From a virus, in the IMG/VR virus record IMGVR_UViG_3300044825_000898, positions 1 through 33,820 of that record: a stretch of DNA of 33,820 bases; one strand, written 5' to 3'. How positions within the stretch are numbered: position 1 is the stretch's first letter; the number at the start of each line of letters is the position of its first letter. Under the pieces are notes generated by a model. That model ran no database searches. It saw only the letters and a program-made list of their open reading frames with translations, and was not told the DNA's origin. Below, one piece after another: positions 3,771 through 29,113 of this stretch. Position numbers and translations under genes: made by a program.

Positions 3771-5102
3771 ATGAATGCTCCCGTCATCAAAAAGATCCCG
3801 GTCGCTGCCCTCGTGCCCTACGAGCGCAATGCCCGCACGCATTCGCCCGAGCAGGTCGAGCAGATCGCCCGTTCCATCCGCGAGTTCGGGTTCACGAGCC
3901 CGCTGCTGGTCGACGAGCAGGGCCGCATCATCGCGGGCCACGGCCGCCTGCTGGCGCTGCGCTCCCTCGGCGAGACTGAGGCCTCGTGCATCGTTCTGTC
4001 GGGCCTGACGGATGCCCAGCGGCGCGCCCTGGTGATCGCGGACAACAAGCTGGCCCTCAACGCTGGCTGGGACACTGAGCTGCTGGTGGCCGAGCTGAAG
4101 GAGCTGCAGCTCGAGGGCTTCGACGTCTCCCTCACGGGTTTCTCGGCGGCCGAGCTGGCGGAGTTCTTCCTCGAGCTTGCGCCCGATCGCGACCCTGACG
4201 AGGTGCCCGAGCTTCCGGCCGAGCCCGTCACCAAGCCCGGCGACGTGTGGCGTCTGGGCGCTCACCTGGTGATCTGCGGCGACTCGACCGACGTGTGCAC
4301 GCTTGGCCGCGTCATGGGCAACGCCCAGGCCGATGCCGTGATCTGTGCTGAGGCCACCTGGACGGATCCGCCCTACAACGTCGCCTACGAGACGAAGGCG
4401 GGGAAGATCGCCAACGACGACATGAAGGACGGCGAGTTCCTCGACTTCCTCACCTCGGCGTTCTCGTCCGTCTGGACCTGCATGAAGCCCGGCGCGGCCA
4501 TCTACGTGGCCCATGCTGACGGTGAGCCGGGCCTTTCCTTCCGCACGGCCTTCCGGGCCGCTGGCTTCAAGCTCTCCGGCTGCCTCATCTGGCGCAAGGA
4601 CAAGTTCACCCTGTCCCGCTCGGACTACCAGTGGCAGCACGAGCCCATCCTCTACGGCTGGAAGCCTGGCAGCGCGCATCGCTGGTACGGAGGCCGCAAG
4701 GAGACGACGGTCTGGGATCTCGGCGACCGCTCGCCCTTCGTGCGCCTCGAGGACGGCCGCTGGCAGCTGACCGTCGGCAATCAGACTATGATCGTGGCAG
4801 GGGACGTGCGCGTCTCTGAGGTGGTGCCCACGGTCATCGATGAGCCCAAGCCCAAGCGCAACGGCTCGCACCCCACCATGAAGCCCGTGGCCCTGATCGA
4901 GCGCATGCTCAAGCACTCGGCCAGGCCCGGCGACCTGATCCTTGACCCGTTTGGCGGCAGCGGCTCGACGCTGATCGCGGCTGACCGGCTCGGCATGGAA
5001 GCCCGGCTGTGTGAGCTGGATCCGCGCTACGTCGATGTGATCGTCAAGCGGTGGGAGGACTACACCGGCCGCAAGGCTGTGTTGGAGACGACCCATGACT
5101 GA
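3771..5102 (+). CDS. ParB-domain / DNA methyltransferase fusion
   Basis: A 443-aa fusion. Residues about 8-95 form a ParB/Srx-like domain with the core GRIIAGHGR (51-59). The remainder is an amino-group DNA methyltransferase: DPPY at residues 199-202 (motif IV) and DPFGGSGST from residue 392 (AdoMet-binding motif I). Motif IV preceding motif I indicates the permuted beta-class order typical of N6-adenine or N4-cytosine enzymes. Proteins of this arrangement are frequent in phages just upstream of the terminase and probably modify phage DNA against host restriction or mark it for packaging; which applies here is inference. No clear Shine-Dalgarno precedes ATG 3771. The 3' end overlaps the small terminase by 8 nt. 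Target base and site cannot be read from the sequence. Confidence 0.9.
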   Translation: MNAPVIKKIPVAALVPYERNARTHSPEQVEQIARSIREFGFTSPLLVDEQGRIIAGHGRLLALRSLGETEASCIVLSGLTDAQRRALVIADNKLALNAGWDTELLVAELKELQLEGFDVSLTGFSAAELAEFFLELAPDRDPDEVPELPAEPVTKPGDVWRLGAHLVICGDSTDVCTLGRVMGNAQADAVICAEATWTDPPYNVAYETKAGKIANDDMKDGEFLDFLTSAFSSVWTCMKPGAAIYVAHADGEPGLSFRTAFRAAGFKLSGCLIWRKDKFTLSRSDYQWQHEPILYGWKPGSAHRWYGGRKETTVWDLGDRSPFVRLEDGRWQLTVGNQTMIVAGDVRVSEVVPTVIDEPKPKRNGSHPTMKPVALIERMLKHSARPGDLILDPFGGSGSTLIAADRLGMEARLCELDPRYVDVIVKRWEDYTGRKAVLETTHD

Positions 5103-9144: not shown

Positions 9145-9425
9145 TGCGGCTGTGGGTGCATTTCTGGAACCTGAGAGAATCGGCGCGGGCGCTGTTTGTC
9201 CGGCGTGACGCCACACCGGCGCAGGCCCGGCCGATCCTCGATGAGCTGCGCGAGTTCTGCCGCGCTGATGTGTCGTGCGTGGTGGTGGCCAAGGATGGCC
9301 GCATCGACACGCACGCGACCGCTGTTGCCGAGGGGCGGCGCGAGGTCTGGCTGAAGATCCAGCAGATCCTCGAGCTGACTGACGAGCAGATCAACAAGCT
9401 GAAGGACGAGAACCATGACGACTGA
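9141..9425 (+). CDS. Bbp19-like small protein
   Basis: A 94-aa protein starting in the ATGA overlap with the portal stop. The core LDELREFCRADVSCVVV, followed by EGRREVWLKIQQILELTDEQ, matches my recollection of the Bbp19-like phage domain from Bordetella phage BPP-1 and relatives: a conserved FCRAD-like stretch, then EGRR-x-V-x-L-x-I. Function is unknown; the position suggests a minor head or assembly protein. The end overlaps the first Gp49-family gene by 11 nt (ATGACGACTGA). ATG 9144 is a possible alternative start. Confidence 0.75.
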   Translation: MMRLWVHFWNLRESARALFVRRDATPAQARPILDELREFCRADVSCVVVAKDGRIDTHATAVAEGRREVWLKIQQILELTDEQINKLKDENHDD

Positions 9426-9777
9426 CGAAACCATTGAGCAAGAGATTCAGGCCAAGGGCCTGACGGCGCCGCGCATCACGCCGGCTGACATCGAGGCGAA
9501 CATCGCCAGCGAGCACTACTTCACGGCAGGAGACGGCGTGTTCGGCCGAGAAGTGGCTGCGTGCGGCACTCCGGTGACGAGCGAGCCGGCGCTGAACCTG
9601 CTGACCTTCTGCGTGCTGACCCTCAAGAACGGCTTCACCGTCACGGGTGAGAGCGCCTGCGCCAGCCCGGCCAACTTCAACGCCGAGGTGGGCCGCAAGA
9701 TCGCCCGCCAGAACGCGATCAACAAGGTGTGGCCGCTGATGGGCTACGAGCTGCGCAGCAAACTTGCCACCGTTTAA
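9415..9777 (+). CDS. Gp49/Gp66-family phage protein, copy 1
   Basis: A 120-aa protein of the family named for N4 gp49 and Sf6 gene 66. Hallmarks: RITPADIEANIASEHYF at the N-terminus, then LLTFCVLTLKNGFTVTGESA, then ARQNAINKVWPLMGYELRSK. Members occur in many podoviruses, and the biochemical role is not established. This is the first of two tandem copies whose starts are exactly 378 bp apart. It differs from the second mainly between residues 24 and 88, where it has VFGREVAACGTPVTSEP instead of a Gly/Asn-rich stretch. A GAAGGACGAG sequence could act as ribosome binding site. Confidence 0.85.
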   Translation: MTTDETIEQEIQAKGLTAPRITPADIEANIASEHYFTAGDGVFGREVAACGTPVTSEPALNLLTFCVLTLKNGFTVTGESACASPANFNAEVGRKIARQNAINKVWPLMGYELRSKLATV

Positions 9778-9792
9778 CGAGAGGACTGAACC

Positions 9793-10155
9793 ATGACGAC
9801 TGACGAAACCATTGAGCAAGAGATTCAGGCCAAGGGCCTGACGGCGCCGCGCATCACGCCGGATGACATCGAGGCGAACATTGCGAGCGAACACTACTTC
9901 ACCGCCGAGGATGGCGTCGGGCGCGCCAACCGAGGGCAGACGAGTAACGGGGGCAAGAACCCGTCTGCACTGTCGCTGCTGACGTTCTGCGTGCTCGTGC
10001 TCCGCAACGGTTTTACCGTGACCGGCGAGTCAGCCTGTGCCAGCCCAGAGAATTTCGACGCCGAGGTGGGCCGCAAGATCGCCCGCCAGAACGCGATCAA
10101 CAAGGTCTGGCCGCTGATGGGCTACGAGCTGCGCAGCAAACTTGCCACCGTTTAA
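9793..10155 (+). CDS. Gp49/Gp66-family phage protein, copy 2
   Basis: A 120-aa paralogue of the preceding gene with the same family blocks (ITPDDIEANIASEHYF, LLTFCVLVLRNGFTVTGESA, ARQNAINKVWPLMGYE). The two genes are almost identical at the nucleotide level over the first 75 nt and about the last 117 nt, but clearly diverged between. GAGAGG upstream of ATG 9793 is a good Shine-Dalgarno. Keeping both copies intact and in frame suggests both are used, or that the duplication is recent and refreshed by recombination. Confidence 0.85.
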   Translation: MTTDETIEQEIQAKGLTAPRITPDDIEANIASEHYFTAEDGVGRANRGQTSNGGKNPSALSLLTFCVLVLRNGFTVTGESACASPENFDAEVGRKIARQNAINKVWPLMGYELRSKLATV

Positions 10156-13532: not shown

Positions 13533-15760
13533 TGGCCAAGGCATCCCCAATCATCTCGAACCTGAATGCCGGCGAATTCTCGCCGATGCTGTCCGGCCGG
13601 GTCGATTACGGAAAGTACCCCAACGCGGCCAGCCGGCTGGAGAACTTCATCCCCACGGTGCAGGGCCCGCATGTGCGCCGCGGCGGCACGCGGTTCGTCG
13701 GCGAGGTGAAGGCATCGACGGCCGGCCGCTGTCTGCTGTGGCCCTTCGAGTATTCGGTCGACCAGGCCTACATGGTCGAGTTCGGCGACCAGTACTGCCG
13801 CTTCTACACCTGGGACGCGGTGACGAAGAAGCGCGGCCGGCTTGAAGTGTCCGGCGTGCCGGTCGAGGTGGCCACGCCCTACACTTTGGCGGACCTGTAC
13901 AACAGCGACGGAACCATCCGGCTGCGCTTCGCTCAGAATGGCGACTTGCTCTACATCGCGCACCCGAACTATCAGCCGCGGATTCTCAAGCGCACCAGCG
14001 CCACGTCGTTCACGCTCACCAAGTTCGCGCCCGGTGGAGGCCCGTTCAAGTCGCTGAACGACACGGCAACGACGGTCTACGCCTCAGCCGAGACGGGCAC
14101 GGGCATCACGCTCACGGCGTCGACCGGGATCTTCCAGGCCGGCCACGTCGGCTCGGTCTTCTATCTCGAGTCCAAAGATCTGAACGCGATCGCGGCCTGG
14201 GAGGTCGGCAAGACGGTGACGGTGGGCACCCGGCGCCGATCCGACGGCAAGACCTTCGAGTGCGTGACCGGCGGCACCACGGGGTCGAACCGGCCCGTGC
14301 ACACTGAAGGCGCTCTGTTCGACGGTGATCCTGGCGCTCAGTGGCAGTACCGCGACGCGGGCTATGGCACCGTGCGCATCACTGGCTTTACTTCGGCCAC
14401 GCAGGTGACGGTCGACGTGCTCGACCGGTTGCCGTCTCAGGTGGTGGGCTCAGGCAATGCCACGACGCGCTGGGCCCATGGCGCCTGGTCTGATGTTGAG
14501 GGCTGGCCGTCGCAGGTTGCCTTCTACCGGGAGCGCATGTGGTGGGCCCGCGATCAGCAGGCCTGGGCATCCGTGTCGGCCGACTTCAGCGACTACTCGT
14601 CGAAGATCTTCAACACCGTGTCCGCTGACGCCGGGTTCACCGTTCAGATCAACAGCGGCAAGATCAACGCGGTTCAGTGGCTGTCGGCTGACCGGGATCT
14701 GCTGGTGGGCACGGCCGGCGCTGAGTTCGCGATCGGCGAGCTGACCAACGGCGAGGCCCTGGGCCCCACGAACCGGCGATGCCGCCTGGTGTCCGAGTTC
14801 GGGTCGCGGGCCATCCCGCCGATCAAGAACGGCCGCTCTACCCTGTTCATCCAGCGATCGGGCCTGGTGGCGCGCGAGACGTTCTATGACTTCGGCAGCG
14901 ACGGCTACGAGTCGAGCGAAACCACGGTAGAGGCCGAGCACATCACGCTGACCGGCGTGCAGCATTCGGTCTATGCGCCTGAGCCCACGCCCATCGTCTG
15001 GTCGATCCGCGGCGATGGCCTGCTGATCGGCTTCACCTGGAACAACGAGCAGAAGGTGCGCGGCTGGCACCGGCACCCGATCGGCGGGGCCGGCGTGGTC
15101 GAGTCGATCGCCGTGATGCAGGCGGCCGAGGGCGATCGCTCCGAGTTGTGGATGATCGTCCGGCGCACGATCAACGGCAGCACGAAACGATACGTCGAGT
15201 TCATGGAGCGGCCGTGGCGCGATGGCGATGCGCAGTCGTCTCAGTTCTACCTGGACTGCGGCCTGACCTACTCCGGCGTGCCGGCCACGACGATCAGCGG
15301 CCTGGACCACCTGGAAGGCCAGACGGTCGACGTGCTGGCCGATGGCGCCCCGCATCCGCAGCGCGTGGTGACGGGCGGCGCGATCACGCTGCAGCGCGCG
15401 GCATCCGTCGTGCAGGTGGGCCTGCCGTGCCCGTGCTACTTCAAGTCGATGCGCCTCGAGGCCGCGGCCGCTGACGGCACGGCCCAGGGCAAGACCAAGC
15501 GCATCCACAAGGCTGTGATGCGCTTCCTGAACACGGGCGGTGGCAGCTACGGCGGCGCCGACACGGCGCTGGACGATCTGCAGCTGCGCACGGCGGCCGA
15601 CCCCATGGGCCAGGCCGTGCCGCTGTTCTCCGGCGACAAGGTGGTGAGCTGGCCCGACGGCTACACCACGGATGCCTTCACGATCTACCGGAACACCCAG
15701 CCGACGGCCGCCACGCTTGTCTCGGTGATGCCGCAGGTCGTCACGCAGGACTCTCGATGA
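13532..15760 (+). CDS. Tail tubular protein B-like nozzle (gp12-like)
   Basis: A 742-aa protein. The opening SPIISNLNAGEFSPMLSGRV, followed by YPNAASRLENFIPTVQGP and RRGGTRFVGEV, is typical of the T7 gp12-type tail nozzle family. The length is also right. GGAGG sits 7 nt before ATG 13532; the GTG one codon earlier is less likely. It would form the hexameric tube tip and bind the tailspikes. The ATG overlaps the preceding stop and the end overlaps the next start by 4 nt, so the whole tail block is translationally coupled. Confidence 0.88.
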   Translation: MAKASPIISNLNAGEFSPMLSGRVDYGKYPNAASRLENFIPTVQGPHVRRGGTRFVGEVKASTAGRCLLWPFEYSVDQAYMVEFGDQYCRFYTWDAVTKKRGRLEVSGVPVEVATPYTLADLYNSDGTIRLRFAQNGDLLYIAHPNYQPRILKRTSATSFTLTKFAPGGGPFKSLNDTATTVYASAETGTGITLTASTGIFQAGHVGSVFYLESKDLNAIAAWEVGKTVTVGTRRRSDGKTFECVTGGTTGSNRPVHTEGALFDGDPGAQWQYRDAGYGTVRITGFTSATQVTVDVLDRLPSQVVGSGNATTRWAHGAWSDVEGWPSQVAFYRERMWWARDQQAWASVSADFSDYSSKIFNTVSADAGFTVQINSGKINAVQWLSADRDLLVGTAGAEFAIGELTNGEALGPTNRRCRLVSEFGSRAIPPIKNGRSTLFIQRSGLVARETFYDFGSDGYESSETTVEAEHITLTGVQHSVYAPEPTPIVWSIRGDGLLIGFTWNNEQKVRGWHRHPIGGAGVVESIAVMQAAEGDRSELWMIVRRTINGSTKRYVEFMERPWRDGDAQSSQFYLDCGLTYSGVPATTISGLDHLEGQTVDVLADGAPHPQRVVTGGAITLQRAASVVQVGLPCPCYFKSMRLEAAAADGTAQGKTKRIHKAVMRFLNTGGGSYGGADTALDDLQLRTAADPMGQAVPLFSGDKVVSWPDGYTTDAFTIYRNTQPTAATLVSVMPQVVTQDSR

Positions 15761-16188
15761 TCATCCGGCGCTTCAAGGCGGGCGATCTTGCCCTGATCAA
15801 GCTGCAGGATGCGCAGGCCTACTTCTCTGGCGAGGTGGCGTCGCCCGACTATGCCGCCACGCTCGAGCACTCCGGCCAGGCCTTCACGGGAGTGCACGGC
15901 GGCGAGGTTGTGTGCGTGGCGGGCTGCGCCAACGTGTGGGAGGGCAGGGCGCTGGCCTGGGCCTTCGTGTCCCCGGCTGCTGGCGCGTGCATGGTGACGC
16001 TGCACCGGGCTGTCGCTGGGTTCCTGGCGCAGGCACAATACCGTCGGATCGAGGCCATCGTCGACGATGGATTTGAGGCCGGGCATCGGTGGATGCGGCT
16101 GCTGGGATTCAGGCTCGAGACGCCTGACGGCATGCCTGGATACCTGCCGGACGGCCGGAAAACATTTCTCTATGCGAGGGTGCGATGA
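15757..16188 (+). CDS. GNAT-like internal virion protein (T7 gp13-like)
   Basis: A 143-aa protein with a GNAT-like pattern: an N-terminal MIIRRFKAGDLALIKLQ, a central strand-rich region (VVCVAGCANVWEGRALAWAFV), and a C-terminal YRRIEAIVDDGFEAGHRWMR...LGFRLE typical of acetyltransferase folds. T7 gp13 and the related DUF2833-type proteins occupy the same slot between the nozzle and gp14-like genes and are needed for infectious virions. The usual acetyl-CoA loop (R/Q-x-x-G-x-G/A) is not obvious, so a structural rather than catalytic role is likely. Start and stop overlap both neighbours. Confidence 0.75.
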   Translation: MIIRRFKAGDLALIKLQDAQAYFSGEVASPDYAATLEHSGQAFTGVHGGEVVCVAGCANVWEGRALAWAFVSPAAGACMVTLHRAVAGFLAQAQYRRIEAIVDDGFEAGHRWMRLLGFRLETPDGMPGYLPDGRKTFLYARVR

Positions 16189-16673
16189 GTGGAGCACTGA
16201 TGTTTATGCAGGCGGCCCAAGGGCTGACTGGCGCCATCGGCGCGATTTCCAGTGGCAACTATGCTGATGCCATGGCCAAGCGCCAGGCGACGCAGATGGA
16301 GCAGGCCGCCGCCGTCGAGGTGACGAACGCCATGTCGCGTGATGAGGCCATGCGTCGGCAAGCCCGCATGCAGCAAGGTCAGGCGCTGGCTGCCAGCGCT
16401 GAGGCCGGCGCCGGGCTGAACGCCGACGCGCTGCGTCAGTCGATCTACGACACCGAGATGGACAGCGCAACCATCCGCTACGAGGGAATGATGCGCTCAA
16501 GCGCGCTGAAGGATCAGGCGGCGATGACGCGCATGGAGGGCAAGCGCGCCAAGCAGGCCGGCTATCTGAGCGCGGCAAGCAGCCTGCTGAACTCCGGCTC
16601 GAACTATTTCGCCGGCCAGCAGCGGACGGACATGGCCAAGAAGGCCGGCACGACTCTGGCGGCAGGAGGCTGA
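16185..16673 (+). CDS. Internal virion protein B-like (T7 gp14-like)
   Basis: A 162-aa, mostly helical Ala-rich protein. The hydrophobic glycine-containing N-terminus (MFMQAAQGLTGAIGAISSG), long charged helix and repeated Ala/Met segments match the T7 gp14 type, which inserts in the outer membrane when DNA is ejected. Size is near that of T7 gp14 (196 aa). The order gp13-, gp14-, gp15- and gp16-like genes is conserved here. Its start overlaps the previous stop (ATGA), and its last codons contain AGGAGG, the ribosome site of the next gene. Confidence 0.8.
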   Translation: MSGALMFMQAAQGLTGAIGAISSGNYADAMAKRQATQMEQAAAVEVTNAMSRDEAMRRQARMQQGQALAASAEAGAGLNADALRQSIYDTEMDSATIRYEGMMRSSALKDQAAMTRMEGKRAKQAGYLSAASSLLNSGSNYFAGQQRTDMAKKAGTTLAAGG

Positions 16674-16674
16674 C

Positions 16675-19344
16675 ATGGCGACGATCAATTTCTACCAGCG
16701 TCGCCAGGTGAGCGATGCGCTGCCCGGCGTCACGCAGGGTTCTCGTTCCGATCCGGTTGCTGGTGCCGTGCAGGGCCTGAGCCAGGTGCTCGGCGGCGCG
16801 GTCCAGGATCAGCAGTCGATCGAGATCCAGCAGGCCCACCACGAGGCCATCCAGGCCCGCAAGAAGATCGAGGACCAGGCGGCCGTCGACGTGTCGAATA
16901 CGCTGTCGCAGGGCGACGTCTACTGGCAGGATCAGCTCAAGACGCGCACCCAGGGCTGGAAGCCTGGCGATCCCGATCTGCGCGCTGGCGTCGCGAAGGA
17001 CTTCGACAAATGGGTGAGCGAGTCGGCGGCCAAGTTGCCGACCGATGCCTCGCGCAAGTTCTTCCTGCAGCACACGGCCGCCATGAAGGCCCGCATGCAG
17101 ATGGGCCTGAGCGACTTCCAGCAGAAGGCCACGACCGACCTGCTGAACGTGAACACGGCCGTTGGCGAGGCAGACGACGAGCGCAACGTCGCCTCCAACT
17201 GGAAAGACGAGAAGTTTGTCGACGGGGTGATCACGCGGCGCACCGAGGCCATCTTCGCCCGCACCGACCTGTCCGAGGCCGACAAGGTGAAAGAGGCCAA
17301 CCGGGTCAAGCTGAAGATGACGCTGGCCCGCGAGCGTGCGTTCATCGAGGCGGATCCGGCCGGCTGGCTCAAGCAGAACGGCACGGCGGCCAAGCCCGGC
17401 AAGGATGGCCAGGCTGCACCTGGCGCGACCGGTGGCTTCGACGCGCAGGTGTCGGCCGTGCTGCAGCGCGAGGGCGGGTTCGTCGCCAACGATGGCGGCA
17501 GCGGCGCGCCGGCGAACTTCGGGATCAACCAGAAGGCGAACCCCGACATCAACGTCAAGGACCTCACGCCGGAGAAGGCGAAGGAGATCTACAAGGCCCG
17601 CTACTGGGATGCGATCGGCGCTGATGGCCTGTCGCCGCAGATGCAGGGCACGGCCTTCGATGCGGCCGTGAACCAGGGCGTGGGCTGGACGAAGAAGGCC
17701 CTGGCCGAGGCCGGCGGCAACGTGGACAAGTTCAACGAGCTGCGCCGGGCCCGCTACCGTGAGATCGCCAACTCCAACCCGGAGAAGGCGCAGTACCTCA
17801 TGAACTGGCTGTCGCGGGTCGATTCCTCGTCGCAGCCTGCTGCTACCGGAGCTGCTACTGCCGGAGCTGCTACTGCCGGAGCTGCCGGCGGCGATCCGTT
17901 CAGCCTGTCCCGCTTCGCGTCCCGCCTGGATCCAGATCAGGTGTACCAGCTGCGCAACCTGGCCGAGACTCGTGTCTCGCAGGCCAACGCGCAGGCCGTG
18001 CAGGACGGGCAGCGGCTGCTCTCCGACCTGATGGCCGCGCACCGTGATGGCGTGGTCGAGCCGGTGGCGCTGGATCGCACGTTCTTCGACCGCTTCGGCG
18101 CCGATGGCACGCGGGTCTATGACCAGTATGCGGCATCGCGCCAGATGGGCGCCGACATTGCCAGCTACGCGGCCAAGCCCACGGCAGAGATCCAGGCCGA
18201 CCTGATGGCGGCCAAGCCCATGGAGGCCGGCCCTGGCTACCAGGCGAAGGAGGCCAGCTACAACGTGAAGATGCAGGCCGCGGCCCACGCCATCAAGCGG
18301 CGCAACGACGACCCCGTGACCTACTCGATTGGCACGTCGCCCAAGGTGCGCGAGCTGGCCGACCGGCTCACGGCCGGGCAGATGACGCCAGAGCAGCGGC
18401 GCCAGGCCACCGAGCAGTTCCTGGACGCCACGCTGGCCGAGCAGGTGCGCCTGGGTGTCGAGCAGCCCAAGATGCTGACGCAGGCCAAGGCCGAACGCTG
18501 GGCGCAGATGGCGATGAAGGCCACGCGGCCGGAGGACTCGGCCAACCTGATCAGCACGCTGGAGAGCGAGTACGGCAAGCACTTCCCCCGCGTGTTCAAC
18601 GAGCTGGCCCGCGAGGGCAAGCTGTCCGGCGAGCTGCTGATCATCCCGAACCTGCCGTCGCAGGCCTCCCGCGAGCTGGTGTCGCGCCTGGCCCGCGTGA
18701 AGGAAAGCGAGCTGGCCGGCACGGTGCCGCCGGATTCGGTAAAGGGCGTGCGCGACAAGGTGCAAGAGCACATGGTCGACCTGGCCAAGACGATCCCTTA
18801 CGCGACCGAGCAGTCCGCCGGCATGCTGGCCAGCTACGAGTCGACCATGAAGAAGATCGCCTACGAGCGCATCGCGGCCGGCACGTCGCCTGGCGACGCG
18901 GTGGACCAGGCGCTGAAGACGATCCTGGGCCACTACGAGCTGCGCGACGGCGTGCGCTTCCCGGCGAAGTCGGATGTGTCTGGCTTCAAGAAGGAGATGG
19001 GCGAGGTGGTCGACGGCCTCAAGCCCGAGACGCTGCAGATCCCCTTCGACACCACGGGCGTGCGCAGCGTGGACGAGCAGCGCAAGATGTTCGCCGACCT
19101 GGTGAAGTCGCGGCCCGTCTGGCACACGACCGACGACGACAAGGGCGTGCAGCTCTACGTCGTCCAGGAAAACGGCGTGAAGCTGCCGGTGATTGCCGAC
19201 GGCCGCCCGGTGCGCAAGACCTGGCAGGAGCTGCAGGCCCCGATGGTAGCCAAGCAGGCAGAGCGCGATGCGCGTCTGCAGCGCACCGAGGAACTGCGCA
19301 AGCAGGTGCAGCCGCAGCAGATCATCCCCGGCGTGCGCTTCTGA
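16675..19344 (+). CDS. Ejection protein with GH108 muramidase domain
   Basis: An 889-aa internal virion protein in the gp15 position. Residues 1-230 are helical. Residues about 254-375 form a GH108-type lysozyme domain: LQREGGF with the likely catalytic E266, then NFGINQKANPD, KEIYKARYWDAIGADGL and FDAAVNQGVGW. A low-complexity Ala/Thr/Gly linker (383-405) follows, then a long helical C-terminal part. In T7 the wall-cutting domain is on gp16, so its presence here on the smaller partner is a domain rearrangement. Its probable role is local peptidoglycan cleavage during DNA entry. AGGAGG precedes ATG 16675. Confidence 0.85.
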   Translation: MATINFYQRRQVSDALPGVTQGSRSDPVAGAVQGLSQVLGGAVQDQQSIEIQQAHHEAIQARKKIEDQAAVDVSNTLSQGDVYWQDQLKTRTQGWKPGDPDLRAGVAKDFDKWVSESAAKLPTDASRKFFLQHTAAMKARMQMGLSDFQQKATTDLLNVNTAVGEADDERNVASNWKDEKFVDGVITRRTEAIFARTDLSEADKVKEANRVKLKMTLARERAFIEADPAGWLKQNGTAAKPGKDGQAAPGATGGFDAQVSAVLQREGGFVANDGGSGAPANFGINQKANPDINVKDLTPEKAKEIYKARYWDAIGADGLSPQMQGTAFDAAVNQGVGWTKKALAEAGGNVDKFNELRRARYREIANSNPEKAQYLMNWLSRVDSSSQPAATGAATAGAATAGAAGGDPFSLSRFASRLDPDQVYQLRNLAETRVSQANAQAVQDGQRLLSDLMAAHRDGVVEPVALDRTFFDRFGADGTRVYDQYAASRQMGADIASYAAKPTAEIQADLMAAKPMEAGPGYQAKEASYNVKMQAAAHAIKRRNDDPVTYSIGTSPKVRELADRLTAGQMTPEQRRQATEQFLDATLAEQVRLGVEQPKMLTQAKAERWAQMAMKATRPEDSANLISTLESEYGKHFPRVFNELAREGKLSGELLIIPNLPSQASRELVSRLARVKESELAGTVPPDSVKGVRDKVQEHMVDLAKTIPYATEQSAGMLASYESTMKKIAYERIAAGTSPGDAVDQALKTILGHYELRDGVRFPAKSDVSGFKKEMGEVVDGLKPETLQIPFDTTGVRSVDEQRKMFADLVKSRPVWHTTDDDKGVQLYVVQENGVKLPVIADGRPVRKTWQELQAPMVAKQAERDARLQRTEELRKQVQPQQIIPGVRF
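17839..17880 (+). repeat. 15-bp tandem repeat encoding AATAG linker
   Basis: Two perfect copies of GCTGCTACTGCCGGA (17851-17865 and 17866-17880) follow a shortened copy (GCTGCTACCGGA, 17839-17850). They encode the Ala/Thr/Gly linker immediately after the muramidase domain. Confidence 0.85.
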
Positions 19345-19377
19345 CGCACAATGGCGGCGAACTCTGGAGACTGACCC

Positions 19378-22300
19378 ATGCCGATGTACCTCGGATCCGA
19401 TGACGCTGGGATCGCGCCCGAGCGTTCCACGCTGCAAGACCTGCCGCTGACCGGCTGGCAGAAGCTGAGCGCCGCAACCCGCGGCGCCTGGCTTGAGTCC
19501 TACGGGCCCACCATGGGCGACTGGGCCATGCAGAAGCTGGGCAACGACAAGTCGCGCAAGATCACGGCGGCAGAGGCCGAGCAGATGCGGCGCGACGGCG
19601 GCTCGCCGCGCATCAGCATCAAACCCAAGGACGGCGAATACACGGCCGGCCAGTGGTCGGAGATCGTCGGCCGCCAGCGCGAGCTGACCGCGATCAACGA
19701 CGTGCGCGACCGCACGCCATGGGAGATGGGATCGGTGGTGCGCGGCGGCGCCATGTTCGCGGCTGGCATCCTCGACCCGATTAACCTGGCGACGGCTGTT
19801 GTGCCCTGGACCAAATCCCTGAGTGTGCTGCAGGGCGCCCGCGCGATGGCCCTGTCCGAGAGTGCGCTGACGCGGGCCGGTGGCCGGTCGATCATCGGCG
19901 CGGCCGATGCTGGCATTTCCACGGCCGTCCTCGAGCCCGCGAACTATGCCGTGCGCAATGCCCTGGGCGACGACTACAGCGCGGCCGACTCGATGGCCAA
20001 CATCGCGTTCGGATCGGCCTTCGGCGGCGGCCTGCATGTGGTCGGCGGCGCGGTGGGCGATGCCTTCCGCATGCGCGCAGGCCGCGGCGATCCGGTGGTG
20101 ACGCCGGATCCCATGCGCGACATGCAGGCCCCGCCCACGGGCGCCATCGTGGGCACCGAGACGAAAGTCCGGGTGGGCGACACCTACGAGCCGGCGCGCT
20201 GGACGGTGGTGGATGCCGAAGCCCTGCAGGCCACGGTCGACAAGGCCGACAACCAGTTCCGCGACCGCTCCCGTCCCGCCTACCAGGCCGAGATCCAGAA
20301 GCGGGCCAATGCGCTCGACCCGGCCCTGGTGCTGGCTGACTCGCCTGTGATGGACATCGGCGCCCCCACGCTGGCGGCCGACGGCCGGATCATCGGCGGC
20401 AACGGGCGCACGCTGTTCATCACGAAGGCCTACGAGATCGGCAAGGCCGGCGACTACCGGGCGGCGCTCGAGGCCCGGCTGCGCGAGGTCGGCATCGACC
20501 CCGACGCAGTGCGCGGCATGAACAAGCCCGTGCTGGTGCGACAGTTCACCCGCGAGGTGGACGTGAAGCGGGCGGCCATGCTCTCGAATGAGGGCGGCGC
20601 CACGGACATGAGCCCGCTCGAACAGGCCAAGGTCGATTCCGAGCGCCTGGGTGATGCCAAGATGCAGGCCGGCGCCGATGGCAACATCGACGTGCCAGAG
20701 AACCGCGCGGCCATCCGGCGCTGGGTCGAGGCCATGCCGGAGAACAAGCGCAACGCTGTGATGGACAGCGACGGCATGCTCTCGCCCGAGGGTGTCCGCC
20801 GATTGAATGCCGCGCTGCTGTTCCGCGCCTATGGCGACTCGCCGATCCTGGGCCGGCTGATTGAGGCCGTCGATCCTGGCAGTCGCAACATCGCCACGGC
20901 ACTCGGCCGCACGGCGCCGGCCCTGGCCGCCATGCGCGACGCGATCGCTGCCGGCGATCTGCATCCGCTCGACCTGGCCGGCGACATTCAGCAGGCCGTG
21001 GAGAAGTTCAACGCGCTGCGCGACCGCGGCACGAAGGTGGCCGACTACCTGGCCCAGCTCGATGCGTTCGGCGACGGTATGAGCCCCGAGGCCCGGCTGA
21101 TGCTCGACTTCATGGGCCGCAATGTGCAGGCGCCGCGCCGGATCATGGATGCCATCCAGGGCTTCATCGAGCGGGTGAACGAGGCCGGCAACCCCAAGCA
21201 AGGCGACATGTTCGGCTCGGCGCCTGCGCCCGACAAGCTGGCCCTGCTCGATGCGGCGATCCGCCAGGCCGAGACCGGCGCCGATACGGCGGCCGAGGTG
21301 GTGGCCAAGGTGTCGCCCGAAACCCGCGAGGCGGCTATGCGCGCGGCCGTGGCCCAGGCGATGGACGGCCGTCCGATCGACGTGGAGCCCATCATCGGCA
21401 TGGATGAGGCCGTTGGCACCCACACCTTCGAGGATGCCGTGGCGGCGGCAGACCGCAACTTCCAGCCCGAGGCCGACGATTTGGCTGACTTCGGGTTCGC
21501 GCGCCAGGTCGAGCAGGAGAACGCCCAGGCGCCGCGCTGGCACGCCCTCGAGGCGGCCGACGCTGCCGCCCAGGAGGCCGAGGCCATGCTGGACGAGGTG
21601 ATCGCGGCGGGCGATCAGGCGTTCAAGTATTCGCGTCAGCAGGCCTACCACGGCACGCAGCATCGTGGCGACCAGGCGGCCGAGCTGCTTGATAGCGCGC
21701 TGCGCAAGGCCTTCGGCGCCGACACTGATGCGCTGATCGCATCGGGCGCTGTGGAAATCGTGCCGACGGTCGACCGCATCCCCGGCGGCCCGCACCCGTC
21801 TGACGTGAAGGCGGCCACGGCGCCTGACGGCAAGGTCTATGTGGTGGCCGAGAACGTGAGCCCCAACGAGGCGCGCGGGATCCTGCTGCACGAGGTCGGC
21901 GTGCACGTGGGCATGGAGGGCATGCTGGGCCGCGAGGTGTTCGACGCGGTGCTGGGCCAGCTCGATGAGGCCATCCTGCGCGGCGAGGAATGGGCACAGG
22001 CGGCGCGCGCTGCCGTGCCTGATGACACGCCGGCCGGCCTGGTGCGCGAGGAACAGCTGGCCTACCTGGTGCAGAACGCGCCCGAGCTGCCCATCGTGCA
22101 GCGGATCATCGCGGCCGTGCGGGCCTGGGCCTACCGCAACTTCGAGTTCGCCCGCGAGCGCATGACGCTCGGCGAGGCCGACTTCCAGGCCATGGCCGTG
22201 TCGGCGTTGCGTGCGGCCGCGCGGGATGAGCGGGCCGGTGCTGGCGTGCTGGCCTACAGCCGCGGCGAGGCCGAAGACCCGGTGCAAGCCAAGGAGACGG

Positions 22301-24930
22301 TGAAGCAGGCGAAGGCATCGGTCGATCGCGCCCGGCAGTATGCCAAGGTGCTGCGTGCGGCGGCCGACAAGCTGGACAACGATGCCGAGGCGGCGGCGGC
22401 CATGAAGGCGGCCATGCCCGACATTTCGCCCCAGGAGATCAAGGATCTGCTGGACGGGCTGCGCAAGGAGGTGAAGGGCCTGCGCGGCATGGCCCGGTCG
22501 GCCAATGATGCGCTGACGGCCGTTGACCGCGCCGACACCATGCAGACCGACGCCATGCGTGCGGCCGATCGCCTGGCCAACAACATCGAGATGGCCGAGG
22601 TGATCAAGGCACGCAATGAGGCGCTGAACCAGGCCGTGCGCCTGAAGACCTCCGGGTTCCTCAAGCAGTTTGCCAAGCCGGGCTTGGACTTCGAGGGCTT
22701 CCGCGCGCTGCTGGTTGGATCCGAGCGCAAGCGGGCCGGCGCGCGCATGTCGGTCGATGCCGAGCAGAAGGCCTTCCGCGGGCAGTGGCTGGCCGGCCTC
22801 GAGGCCGATCTGCGCAAAGCCGACGTGTGGAAGCAGTTCACGTCCGGCGAGTTCGACCGCGACGCGTTCATCGCGCTGCACGCGCTGGGCAAGGGCGAGA
22901 CGCCGAAGGTGAACCCAGAGGCCCTGAAGATCGCCGAGATCGTCCACAAGTACCAGGAGCACGCCCGCAACACGCGCAACCGGTTCGGCGCCTGGATCCG
23001 CGATCTGTCTGGCTACATCACGCGCCAGACCCACGACATGCTGAAGATCCGCGATGCCGGAGAGAAGGCCTGGACGGAGTTCGTCCTGCCGCGACTGGAC
23101 GTCGAGAAGACGATGCGCGACTTCGGCGGGTCGGTCGATGAGTTCCTGCAGCGGGCCTATGAGGACTTCGCTGCCGGCAACCACATGAAGACGCCGGCCG
23201 GCGAGGATGATCTGGCGGCCTTCGGCCGGGGCGGGAACCTGGCGAAACGCGAGTCTGCCAGCCGGGCGATCTACTTCAAGGATGGCGCGGCGGCCTACGA
23301 GTACAACGCCAAGTTCGGCCAGGGCCGCCTGGCTGAGACGGTGCTGCACGGCCTGGACGGCGCGGCCAAGTCGGCCGGGCTGCTGAAGGTGCTGGGCACC
23401 AATCCTCAGGCCACGGTCGAGCGGCTGTTCCGCGAGTATGCCGACAACCTGCGCACCGACCCGAAACGGCGAGCCGAGTTCCTGGGCCACGAGAAGGAGC
23501 TGCGCAACCTGCTGGCTCAAATCGACGGCAGTGTGAACATCCCAGGCAACGTGACGGCGGCCAAGGTGTCGGCGTTCTACCGGTCGTGGATCTCGATGAC
23601 CAAGCTGGGCGGCATGCTGGCCTCGTCGATCGCCGACCTGCCGGTCTACGGTTCCGAGCTGCGGTTCCAGCGCGACAAGAACATGCTCTCAGGCGTGGCC
23701 GAGGGTGTGGCCAGCCTGACGCGCGGCCGTGCCAAGGGCGAGCGCAAGGACATTCTGGCGCAGCTGGGCGTCTTCACCGAGTCGACGCTGGGCGCGGTGT
23801 TCCATCGGTTCGACTCGCCAGACCTGATGGGCGGCAAGACGTCGGCGGCCATGCAGCTGTTCTTCAAGCTCACCGGCATGAACTGGTGGACGGAAAGCCT
23901 GCGCGACGGATACGCGCTGTCTCACTCGGCCTACATGGCCGGGCACACCGACAAGGCCTGGGACAAGGTTCCGGCCGCGCTGCGTGACATGATGGGCCTC
24001 TACAACATCGACGCCGGCAAGTGGGACGTGCTGCGCCTGGCCGCGCTGCAGGAGGCCGACGGCCGCAAGTACCTGACGCCGGAGGGCCTGAAGACGGTGC
24101 CGCGCGCCGCGTTCGAGAACTACATCCAGCAGGTCGGCCGCACGGTGTCGGATGCCTCGGTGCAGAACCTGATGGATGACCTGGGCACGGCGCTGCGCAC
24201 GATGGTGATCGACCGCATGAACCACGCGATTGTGGAGCCTGGCGCGCGCACGCGGGCCTTCATGATCCGCGGCACGCAGTCTGGCACGGTGCCTGGCGAG
24301 ATGCTTCGCTTCGTGACGCAGTTCAAGTCGTTTCCGATCGCGCTGATCCAGATGATCCTGGGCCGCGAGGTCTACGGCCGCGGCTACGACACGCTGGGCG
24401 AGTTCGGCCGGGCTGCGTTCACCACGAAGGAGGGCGCTGGCCACATGCTGCAGCTCGCCTCGTTCATGGCGCTGACCACGGCCTTTGGTTACATGGCCAT
24501 GAGCGTGAAGGATCTGGTCAAGGGCAAGGAGCCGCGGCCTGTCAATGACCCGCGCACCTGGCTGGCGGCCATGCAGCAGGGCGGTGGCCTGGGCATCTAC
24601 GGCGATTTCCTGTTCGGCCAGTACAGCCGCACCGGGTCGAGTCTGTCGACGGCGCTGGCGGGCCCTGCCTTCGGGCCGATCGACACGCTGATGGATCTGA
24701 AGACCCGCGTGCAGAAGGGCGACCATGTGGCCGCGGCGGCATTCAAGGCGGCGATCGACAACACGCCGTTCCTGAATCTGTTCTACACGCGCATGGCCAT
24801 GGACTACCTGTTCATTTACCGCATCCAGGAGTCGCTGAACCCTGGCTTTCTGCGCCGGATGGAGCGGCGAGCCCAGACCGAGAACGGCCAGACCTACTGG
24901 CTGCCGCCTTCCGAGTACGCTGTGCGTTGA
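19378..24930 (+). CDS. 1850-aa ejection protein with DdrB/ParB-like and HExxxH regions
   Basis: A giant internal virion protein in the gp16 position. Residues about 260-450 resemble the ParB-superfamily domain of phage P1 DdrB, including GRIIGGNGRTLFITKAYEIG (core GGNGR at 340-344) and the later MLSNEGGATDMSPLEQA. Residues 830-900 contain LLHEVGVHVGMEGMLG: HEVGVH (838-843) spells HExxxH, with E891-E892 (REEQLAYLV) downstream where zincins often have a third ligand. Residues 960-1100 are coiled-coil-like. The last ~350 residues (TKLGGMLASSIADLPVYGSE; MIRGTQSGTVPGEMLRFVTQ) match the C-terminal part common to podoviral ejection proteins. P1 DdrB is packaged and injected and aids anti-restriction, so a similar function is inferred. 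TGGAGA precedes ATG 19378. Confidence 0.8.
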   Translation: MPMYLGSDDAGIAPERSTLQDLPLTGWQKLSAATRGAWLESYGPTMGDWAMQKLGNDKSRKITAAEAEQMRRDGGSPRISIKPKDGEYTAGQWSEIVGRQRELTAINDVRDRTPWEMGSVVRGGAMFAAGILDPINLATAVVPWTKSLSVLQGARAMALSESALTRAGGRSIIGAADAGISTAVLEPANYAVRNALGDDYSAADSMANIAFGSAFGGGLHVVGGAVGDAFRMRAGRGDPVVTPDPMRDMQAPPTGAIVGTETKVRVGDTYEPARWTVVDAEALQATVDKADNQFRDRSRPAYQAEIQKRANALDPALVLADSPVMDIGAPTLAADGRIIGGNGRTLFITKAYEIGKAGDYRAALEARLREVGIDPDAVRGMNKPVLVRQFTREVDVKRAAMLSNEGGATDMSPLEQAKVDSERLGDAKMQAGADGNIDVPENRAAIRRWVEAMPENKRNAVMDSDGMLSPEGVRRLNAALLFRAYGDSPILGRLIEAVDPGSRNIATALGRTAPALAAMRDAIAAGDLHPLDLAGDIQQAVEKFNALRDRGTKVADYLAQLDAFGDGMSPEARLMLDFMGRNVQAPRRIMDAIQGFIERVNEAGNPKQGDMFGSAPAPDKLALLDAAIRQAETGADTAAEVVAKVSPETREAAMRAAVAQAMDGRPIDVEPIIGMDEAVGTHTFEDAVAAADRNFQPEADDLADFGFARQVEQENAQAPRWHALEAADAAAQEAEAMLDEVIAAGDQAFKYSRQQAYHGTQHRGDQAAELLDSALRKAFGADTDALIASGAVEIVPTVDRIPGGPHPSDVKAATAPDGKVYVVAENVSPNEARGILLHEVGVHVGMEGMLGREVFDAVLGQLDEAILRGEEWAQAARAAVPDDTPAGLVREEQLAYLVQNAPELPIVQRIIAAVRAWAYRNFEFARERMTLGEADFQAMAVSALRAAARDERAGAGVLAYSRGEAEDPVQAKETVKQAKASVDRARQYAKVLRAAADKLDNDAEAAAAMKAAMPDISPQEIKDLLDGLRKEVKGLRGMARSANDALTAVDRADTMQTDAMRAADRLANNIEMAEVIKARNEALNQAVRLKTSGFLKQFAKPGLDFEGFRALLVGSERKRAGARMSVDAEQKAFRGQWLAGLEADLRKADVWKQFTSGEFDRDAFIALHALGKGETPKVNPEALKIAEIVHKYQEHARNTRNRFGAWIRDLSGYITRQTHDMLKIRDAGEKAWTEFVLPRLDVEKTMRDFGGSVDEFLQRAYEDFAAGNHMKTPAGEDDLAAFGRGGNLAKRESASRAIYFKDGAAAYEYNAKFGQGRLAETVLHGLDGAAKSAGLLKVLGTNPQATVERLFREYADNLRTDPKRRAEFLGHEKELRNLLAQIDGSVNIPGNVTAAKVSAFYRSWISMTKLGGMLASSIADLPVYGSELRFQRDKNMLSGVAEGVASLTRGRAKGERKDILAQLGVFTESTLGAVFHRFDSPDLMGGKTSAAMQLFFKLTGMNWWTESLRDGYALSHSAYMAGHTDKAWDKVPAALRDMMGLYNIDAGKWDVLRLAALQEADGRKYLTPEGLKTVPRAAFENYIQQVGRTVSDASVQNLMDDLGTALRTMVIDRMNHAIVEPGARTRAFMIRGTQSGTVPGEMLRFVTQFKSFPIALIQMILGREVYGRGYDTLGEFGRAAFTTKEGAGHMLQLASFMALTTAFGYMAMSVKDLVKGKEPRPVNDPRTWLAAMQQGGGLGIYGDFLFGQYSRTGSSLSTALAGPAFGPIDTLMDLKTRVQKGDHVAAAAFKAAIDNTPFLNLFYTRMAMDYLFIYRIQESLNPGFLRRMERRAQTENGQTYWLPPSEYAVR

Positions 24931-28375: not shown

Positions 28376-28656
28376 ACACCAACACCCTACTGCTGATCGT
28401 CCAGGCGCTTGCGAGCGCCGTTGTCCTTTTGGCCGCGTTCCGTGCGCTGGCCTGCTCAGATCGTGGCGAGCTGTCGCTGCGCACGGCGGCTGGGTTCCTG
28501 CTCGGGTTCGCGGCCGCCACCGGCATTGCTCGGTCGATCCATGAGAAACTGCTGGACGTGCCCACACTGGCTCTGCTGATCGGCGCCGCGTGCTGGGTCG
28601 GCTGGATGGTGCTGCATCATCAGCGCGAACAGAAGGAGCTTGGCCATGGACTTTGA
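28372..28656 (+). CDS. Small membrane protein upstream of endolysin
   Basis: A 94-aa protein beginning in the ATGA overlap with the preceding gene. Hydrophobic segments lie at about residues 5-26 (TLLLIVQALASAVVLLAAF), 39-55 (TAAGFLLGFAAATGIA) and 66-83 (PTLALLIGAACWVGWMV), with a charged tail (HHQREQKEL). It may be a holin or antiholin. It is not an obvious Rz: it lacks the long periplasmic coiled coil. Its final 11 nt overlap the endolysin start, and AAGGAG within its end serves the endolysin. Confidence 0.65.
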   Translation: MNTNTLLLIVQALASAVVLLAAFRALACSDRGELSLRTAAGFLLGFAAATGIARSIHEKLLDVPTLALLIGAACWVGWMVLHHQREQKELGHGL

Positions 28657-29113
28657 CACTGCGTTCGAACGGCTCATCGGGCACGAGGGCGGCTATGTGA
28701 ACGACCCCCGCGACCCCGGCGGCGAAACGAAGTTCGGCATCTCGAAGCGCGCCTACCCTGGTGAGAATATCGCATCACTGACGCTGGAGCGCGCGAAGGA
28801 ACTCTACCGGCGCGACTACTGGTGCCCGGCCGGATGCGATGCCGTTCCCGTGGCCATCCGCTTCGACCTGTTCGACATGGCCGTGAACGCTGGCGTGAAG
28901 GCCGCGGTGCGCACGCTGCAGCTGGCGGCCGGCGCTGATGCCGACTGCGTGCTGGGCACCAAAACCCTGCAGGCCGTGAACTACACCGACGGCGGCAAGC
29001 TGCTGGCCCGATTCAACGGGCAGCGCCTGAAGCTGCTGGCAGACCTGCCGACCTGGGACCGTTTCGGCCGCGGCTGGGCCCGGCGCATCGCTTCGAACCT
29101 TCTGGAGGCTTGA
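28646..29113 (+). CDS. Endolysin, GH108 muramidase
   Basis: A 155-aa lysozyme-like endolysin. HEGGY with the catalytic E14, followed by VNDPRDPGGETKFGISK, then AKELYRRDYWCPAG and FDLFDMAVNAG, are the hallmarks of GH108, with the peptidoglycan-binding-like C-terminal half LQLAAGADADCVLGTKTLQA. It cleaves the glycan strand at the end of infection. There is no signal peptide or SAR segment, so it needs a holin. AAGGAG lies 8 nt before ATG 28646; the TTG two codons earlier is less likely. The same fold occurs in the ejection protein at 16675-19344. Confidence 0.93.
   Translation: MDFDTAFERLIGHEGGYVNDPRDPGGETKFGISKRAYPGENIASLTLERAKELYRRDYWCPAGCDAVPVAIRFDLFDMAVNAGVKAAVRTLQLAAGADADCVLGTKTLQAVNYTDGGKLLARFNGQRLKLLADLPTWDRFGRGWARRIASNLLEA

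Follow-up and report, generated by a model that had tools for sequence, protein, structure and literature searches.

DdrB of phage P1 (YP_006491.1) is a virion protein, a stand-alone head protein of 995 aa in a myovirus, in which a DdrB-like ParB domain is followed by a helical region and, later in the chain, by a zincin motif. The ddrB gene is non-essential (PMC10695390), its product is needed for protection against EcoB/EcoK (PMC12810830), and PMC9024508 lists the protein under 'Aids DarB addition to capsid'. According to Iyer et al. 2017 (PMC5512222), P1 DdrB is processed before packaging, and DdrB-like ParB domains are predicted to be NTP-regulated nucleases or NTP sensors. The same paper describes polyvalent proteins, multidomain delivered chains that mix DdrB-ParB, MPTase (with an HEXXXH variant among the peptidases), ART, PBECR and lysozyme domains. 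DdrB-ParB domains in virion proteins are already published, and they are common: more than 560 viral-contig stretches and 50 bacterial genome loci matched in our searches. The other systems to be compared are the epsilon15-type phages, in which gp16-like and gp17-like ejection proteins are encoded by two adjacent or nearby genes (Tr60_Ab31, Vibrio phage 1.182.O, Alcaligenes phage Piluca and TPWB-05) and no peptidase module is found. In Piluca and TPWB-05 the gp16-like gene has a DdrB-ParB domain together with an SLT domain.

What does the virus studied here share with these systems? The window, that is the whole stretch analysed, is a 33.8-kb virus record (33,820 nt) with a podovirus-like gene order by PHROGs: terminase, portal, major capsid, tail tube proteins, internal virion proteins, ejection proteins, tail fibre and lysis. 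The internal virion and ejection genes, and the features mapped within the fused ejection protein, lie on the plus strand. A gp13/14-like internal virion protein (15757-16188; phrog_4177 and phrog_308) is followed by a second internal virion protein (16185-16673; phrog_418, E=1e-18), by an 889-aa gp15-position ejection protein with a GH108 muramidase domain (16675-19344; PF05838, E=2e-17) and by the subject of this work, a fused ejection protein of 1850 aa (19378-24930). Epsilon15 gp15, which occupies the same position as the GH108 gene, is annotated as lytic transglycosylase-like. Both the GH108 gene and the endolysin gene (28640-29113) match phrog_315, so that one phage carries two related muramidases. 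Elsewhere in the window, two adjacent 120-aa genes (9415-9777 and 9793-10155) have near-identical ends (MTTDETIEQEIQAKGLTAPRITP... and ...GRKIARQNAINKVWPLMGYELRSKLATV) and divergent middles; the pair is a tandem duplication of phrog_322. The gene at 3771-5102 combines an N-terminal ParB-like domain with a DNA methyltransferase (phrog_498), which gives the phage another ParB-fold protein and possibly an enzyme for self-modification. An open frame of 2438 aa on the minus strand (16204-23520), antisense to the ejection genes, is probably a codon-bias artefact of the high-G+C sequence.

The two ends of the 1850-aa chain are homologous to the proteins of epsilon15 (gp16/gp17), Tr60_Ab31 (gp15/gp16), Vibrio 1.182.O and Piluca (gp47/gp48), and gene order and neighbours agree as well. 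The N-terminal gp16-position domain (aa 1-245, 19378-20112) matches phrog_3003 and, by tblastn, Vibrio phage 1.182.O gp16, Tr60_Ab31 gp15 and Pelagibacter phages. At the other end, the gp17-like pilot/ejection domain (aa 1009-1847, 22402-24918) covers positions 10-828 of the 840 in phrog_684 ('virion structural protein') with E=5e-186 and shares 40.5% identity with gp16 of Pseudomonas phage Tr60_Ab31, and a pilot HMM built with the window sequence scores epsilon15 gp17 at 6e-85. Full-length homology and the position after gp16 make this part an epsilon15-type gp17; it is named by PHROGs, and neither Pfam nor NCBIfam gave a name for it. With aa 961-1341 as the query, a scan gave no loci. The split relatives are annotated as pilot or internal virion proteins, Piluca gp48 being a pilot protein. 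The first-pass annotation had placed the gene among the ejected virion proteins, and this setting holds; packaging and ejection of the window protein itself would follow by analogy with its family.

As the relatives carry these parts as two genes, the window gene is a gp16-like/gp17-like fusion. Is the fusion real? The two-gene arrangement outside the clade might suggest a sequencing or assembly artefact, a reading with a negligible chance of being right: the same fused frame, without stops, occurs in nine other independent contigs (L002, L003, L005, L006, L009, L010, L022, L023 and L040), which refutes it for practical purposes. Unfused natural counterparts also exist (L138 and L139), with the N-terminal part and ddrB in one ORF and the pilot in the next. 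An internal translation start for the pilot was considered at the in-frame ATGs of aa 1009 and 1013 and set aside, as neither has an obvious Shine-Dalgarno sequence.

Within the gp16-like half lies a ddrB-ParB domain (aa 272-389, 20191-20544). It matches PF18763 with E=1.2e-24 and 87.2 bits, against a curated cut-off of 27.6, and the match persists when the segment is scanned alone (E=2.7e-25). Using aa 272-656 as the tblastn query, P1 DdrB is found over query aa 275-613 (29.5% identity over 339 residues, E=2e-26), as are P7, D6 and other phages. The homology thus runs beyond the Pfam domain into a helical extension common to P1 DdrB (aa 390-640, 20545-21297), which is delimited by the tblastn match to aa 613, the alignment and the AF2 model and reaches about nt 21297. 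Two motifs stand out among 54 sequences. The R-D-R of the DdrB-like ParB family (aa 295-297, 20260-20268) has invariant R295 and R297 and a D296 conserved in at least 90%, and GNGR, at the GxxR position of the superfamily (aa 341-344, 20398-20409), has invariant G341, N342 and R344 with G343 in at least 90%; all four GNGR residues are invariant in a 14-sequence alignment that includes P1 DdrB. In the predicted structure GNGR appears to supply the two marks of the family named in PMC5512222, a pocket arginine and a D/N that closes strand 2, the strand 2 assignment coming from the AF2 model and not from the figure of that paper.

The AF2 model of aa 255-640, made from an alignment of 54 sequences, has a pLDDT of 91.2 and a pTM of 0.84. 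Foldseek against the PDB placed ParB proteins at ranks 1-2 with non-significant scores (E 0.17 and 0.4), and a PDB sequence search gave no useful match. A second structural comparison was clearer: ranks 1-10 all belong to the ParB family with Z 6.4-8.0 (7bnk on top, with Z 8.0 and an rmsd of 2.6 over 90 residues; 6sdk, 7bm8, KorB, Noc and PadC among the others), and the first unrelated row follows at Z 4.6. The ParB/Noc/KorB CTPase domains carry a GERR-type box. The window domain resembles them in predicted fold and in its GxxR-type motif and differs from them in having GNGR and in its setting, which shows no partition or parS context. Profile, homology, predicted fold and motifs agree that the DdrB/ParB-type domain is genuine, as the first-pass annotation had proposed by eye; of the region it gave, 20150-20730, the upstream edge lies within about 50 bases of the domain start and the downstream edge is somewhat long. 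Its overall reading of a DdrB/ParB domain in an ejection chain stands as well, but it overlooked the gp16-gp17 fusion and the metallopeptidase module, swappable slot and boundary motif described below.

Between the gp16-like and gp17-like halves lies a zincin-type metallopeptidase module (aa 754-962, 21637-22263). Pfam and NCBIfam gave no family name for it; a name comes from PHROGs (phrog_873, E=7e-14) and from structure. The AF2 model of the module has a pLDDT of 88, with three strands preceding the HExxxH helix, and falls below 50 at both ends, which are predicted to be disordered. Foldseek returned no significant PDB match for this model, and the best structural rows are zincins at a Z of only 4-6; among them are a toxin catalytic domain, PPEP, MATCAP and selecase, which share the fold only. 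The zinc-binding motif HEVGVH (aa 838-843, 21889-21906) and E891/E892 (22048-22053), the candidate third zinc ligand from the usual zincin layout, are conserved without exception in 16 sequences (H838, E839, H843, E891 and E892). Judged from its residues, an HExxxH helix with a downstream Glu, the module would belong with the zincin MPTases of polyvalent proteins; the corresponding motif of P1 DdrB is HExxH. With a ddrB-ParB domain, a zincin-type module and a pilot domain in one ORF, the window protein has the make-up of a polyvalent protein, delivery being expected from its family.

Why would an ejection protein carry a peptidase? Among distinct loci, a zinc motif (HExxH or HExxxH) is absent from the ddrB ORF in all 83 cases where the pilot ORF follows separately, and present in all 10 fused ddrB+pilot ORFs and in all 5 fused ORFs that lack ddrB, counts that set one clade against many redundant prophages, mostly of Acinetobacter. 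As far as sequences can tell, this association fits a peptidase needed for separating the parts. A prohead protease was considered as an alternative cutter: the product of 10171-10944 matches phrog_458 ('protease'), but it is Ala/Pro-rich and by eye more scaffold-like, so that the window has no clear second protease. The capsid gene beside it has no obvious cleaved domain.

In close relatives, comparison of the sequences indicates that the slot between the two halves holds exchangeable effectors. L005 has PBECR5 (RNase) plus ART-PolyVal at this place, ART-PolyVal is found in L008, L009, L010, L018, L020, L022 and L025, and L006 has a ParB_N-like domain that is under the Pfam cut-off and backed by PHROGs. 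The slot modules of L003, L007, L026 and L028 matched nothing. In Vibrio 1.182.O, ART-PolyVal lies inside the gp16-like gene. The ddrB-ParB domain is itself optional, because L018, L020, L021, L025, L026 and L028 keep the fused backbone and the peptidase without it. A module of roughly 600-760 aa recurs in L003 (11447-13729; the copy for which the three databases gave no match), L007, L022, L023 and L004, starting with GxAPGQKKA(T/V)(V/I/L)WQGT and ending with (D/T)RYARQTGE; it is likely a new delivered effector. The idea that the 760-aa form (L003, L007, L022 and L023) opens with a divergent ART (WQGT resembling YHGT) was dropped, as hhalign gave a probability of 0.4% with thin alignments. 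In the window, YHGT stands directly after the first boundary motif (aa 757-760, nt 21646-21657), and in L009 and L005 the same four residues open the ART-PolyVal modules; the short window copy may be the stub of a lost ART module.

How are these modules joined? The edges of the peptidase module carry two copies of a short peptide, [FY][SA]R: boundary motif 1, (FK)YSR (aa 751-753, 21628-21636), where the effector slot starts, and boundary motif 2, (LA)YSR (aa 960-962, 22255-22263), both candidate cleavage sites. Across the clade the motif tends to mark module starts and ends: AFKYSR closes the gp16-like half, PDIRYSR comes after ART, MDRYAR after the unmatched module, LMFSR after the PBECR5 module, LNAYSR after ParB_N, and APAFSR or LAYSR after the peptidase. 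It occurs 94 times in 20 related proteins against 33 expected from shuffling, in a test made after the motif had been spotted. Swap breakpoints, taken from pairwise BLAST alignments, lie within 5 aa of it in 49 of 244 cases, only about a fifth; 1000 random shifts gave 10.9 such cases on average and never more than 21. L040, added after the test, has the motif at both peptidase edges. Copies also lie within domains (FEFAR inside the peptidase, EYSR close to the C terminus), and there are exceptions, L025 lacking it before the peptidase and L010 and L008 having YTR instead of YSR after it. P1 DdrB and the split relatives have no [FY][SA]R at the corresponding boundaries, and none of the papers listed in a literature search on DIRYS-type motifs was relevant.

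Cuts at aa 753 and 962 would again separate the gp16 and gp17 parts, which in relatives come from two genes. The motif could instead be a recombination seam or a structural linker in a protein that works as a single uncleaved chain. Modules do swap at these places, and the virion RNA polymerase of N4, which has a peptidase domain too, enters the particle uncleaved (PMC5512222). This explanation is a plausible one that we hold short of likely, because the codons of the motif differ, serines being written both as TCN and as AGY, hence poor DNA identity at a would-be seam. The mixed serine codons and the alternation of S with A mean that selection acts on the peptide and not on the DNA. The fused genes also co-occur with the peptidase, and the flanks of the motif, at the low-confidence ends of the peptidase-module model (<50), are predicted to be disordered.

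We lean, with somewhat better than even confidence, to a cleaved podovirus ejection polyprotein that begins as an epsilon15-type gp16-like ejection protein, finishes as a gp17-like one and carries two cargoes, the DdrB-like ParB domain as a fixed part of the gp16-like half and the zincin peptidase in the exchangeable slot. The whole chain would be packaged in the head and, we infer, be cut behind the [FY][SA]R copies, at aa 753 and 962; its own HExxxH peptidase is the most likely enzyme. The products would be a gp16-like+DdrB piece of about 80 kDa, a separate peptidase and a separate pilot. These pieces would leave before the DNA at infection, the gp17-like part helping to form the channel, and the DdrB-ParB arm would bind nucleotides, and possibly nick DNA, in the cytoplasm or close to it. 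Extending the scheme to the whole podovirus clade, as self-cleaving gp16/gp17 cargo polyproteins with [FY][SA]R joints, an HExxxH cutter and any effector swappable, delivered through the DNA channel, is a tentative step.

What is the function of the DdrB-ParB domain? Because its pocket is conserved and the backbone can do without it, we prefer to see in it a nucleotide-binding domain that would be delivered and act early in the cell. The main rival is that it is chiefly an assembly or cargo-loading part, the ParB fold being a ligand-binding scaffold with no action on DNA inside the host. P1 DdrB aids DarB addition to the capsid (PMC9024508), the ParB core is followed by the conserved 250-residue helical region common to P1 DdrB, and nearly all relatives have late-gene, virion contexts. 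We consider this rival rather unlikely: the GxxR-type pocket residues are invariant in 54 diverse sequences, as expected of a nucleotide site, and the domain is absent from close relatives with the same backbone and therefore unnecessary for particle building. The first-pass annotation had suggested that the domain could shield incoming DNA or help it to evade restriction. Homology to a P1 Dar component needed for EcoB/EcoK protection (PMC12810830) and ejection ahead of the DNA, expected from the family, would suit direct protection. Yet the part played by P1 DdrB lies in DarB loading. Among the window ORFs scanned with PHROGs, none was named as a homologue of DarA, DarB or Hdf, which leaves the phage outside the P1 Dar system on that evidence, and the most parsimonious enzymatic prediction, a nuclease or NTPase, does not shield DNA. 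Direct protection thus remains an analogy with P1, and an improbable one.

Compared with P1 DdrB, then, the window protein has the same ParB and helical regions and a zincin motif in a different setting, since P1 DdrB has neither gp16/gp17 parts nor [FY][SA]R sites. A fused epsilon15 gp16+gp17 backbone with a slot and a short boundary peptide was not found in the passages searched of Iyer et al. 2017 (PMC5512222), and to the extent of the literature searched, which is weak evidence, the arrangement appears to be new. In it, a DdrB-type ParB domain is attached directly to channel-forming ejection proteins of the epsilon15-like kind. Several segments between joints in the relatives have no Pfam, PHROGs or NCBIfam match. 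[FY][SA]R offers a testable rule for cut points in multi-cargo virion proteins and, if the rule is right, new delivered effectors could be read from phage genomes as the segments between the joints.
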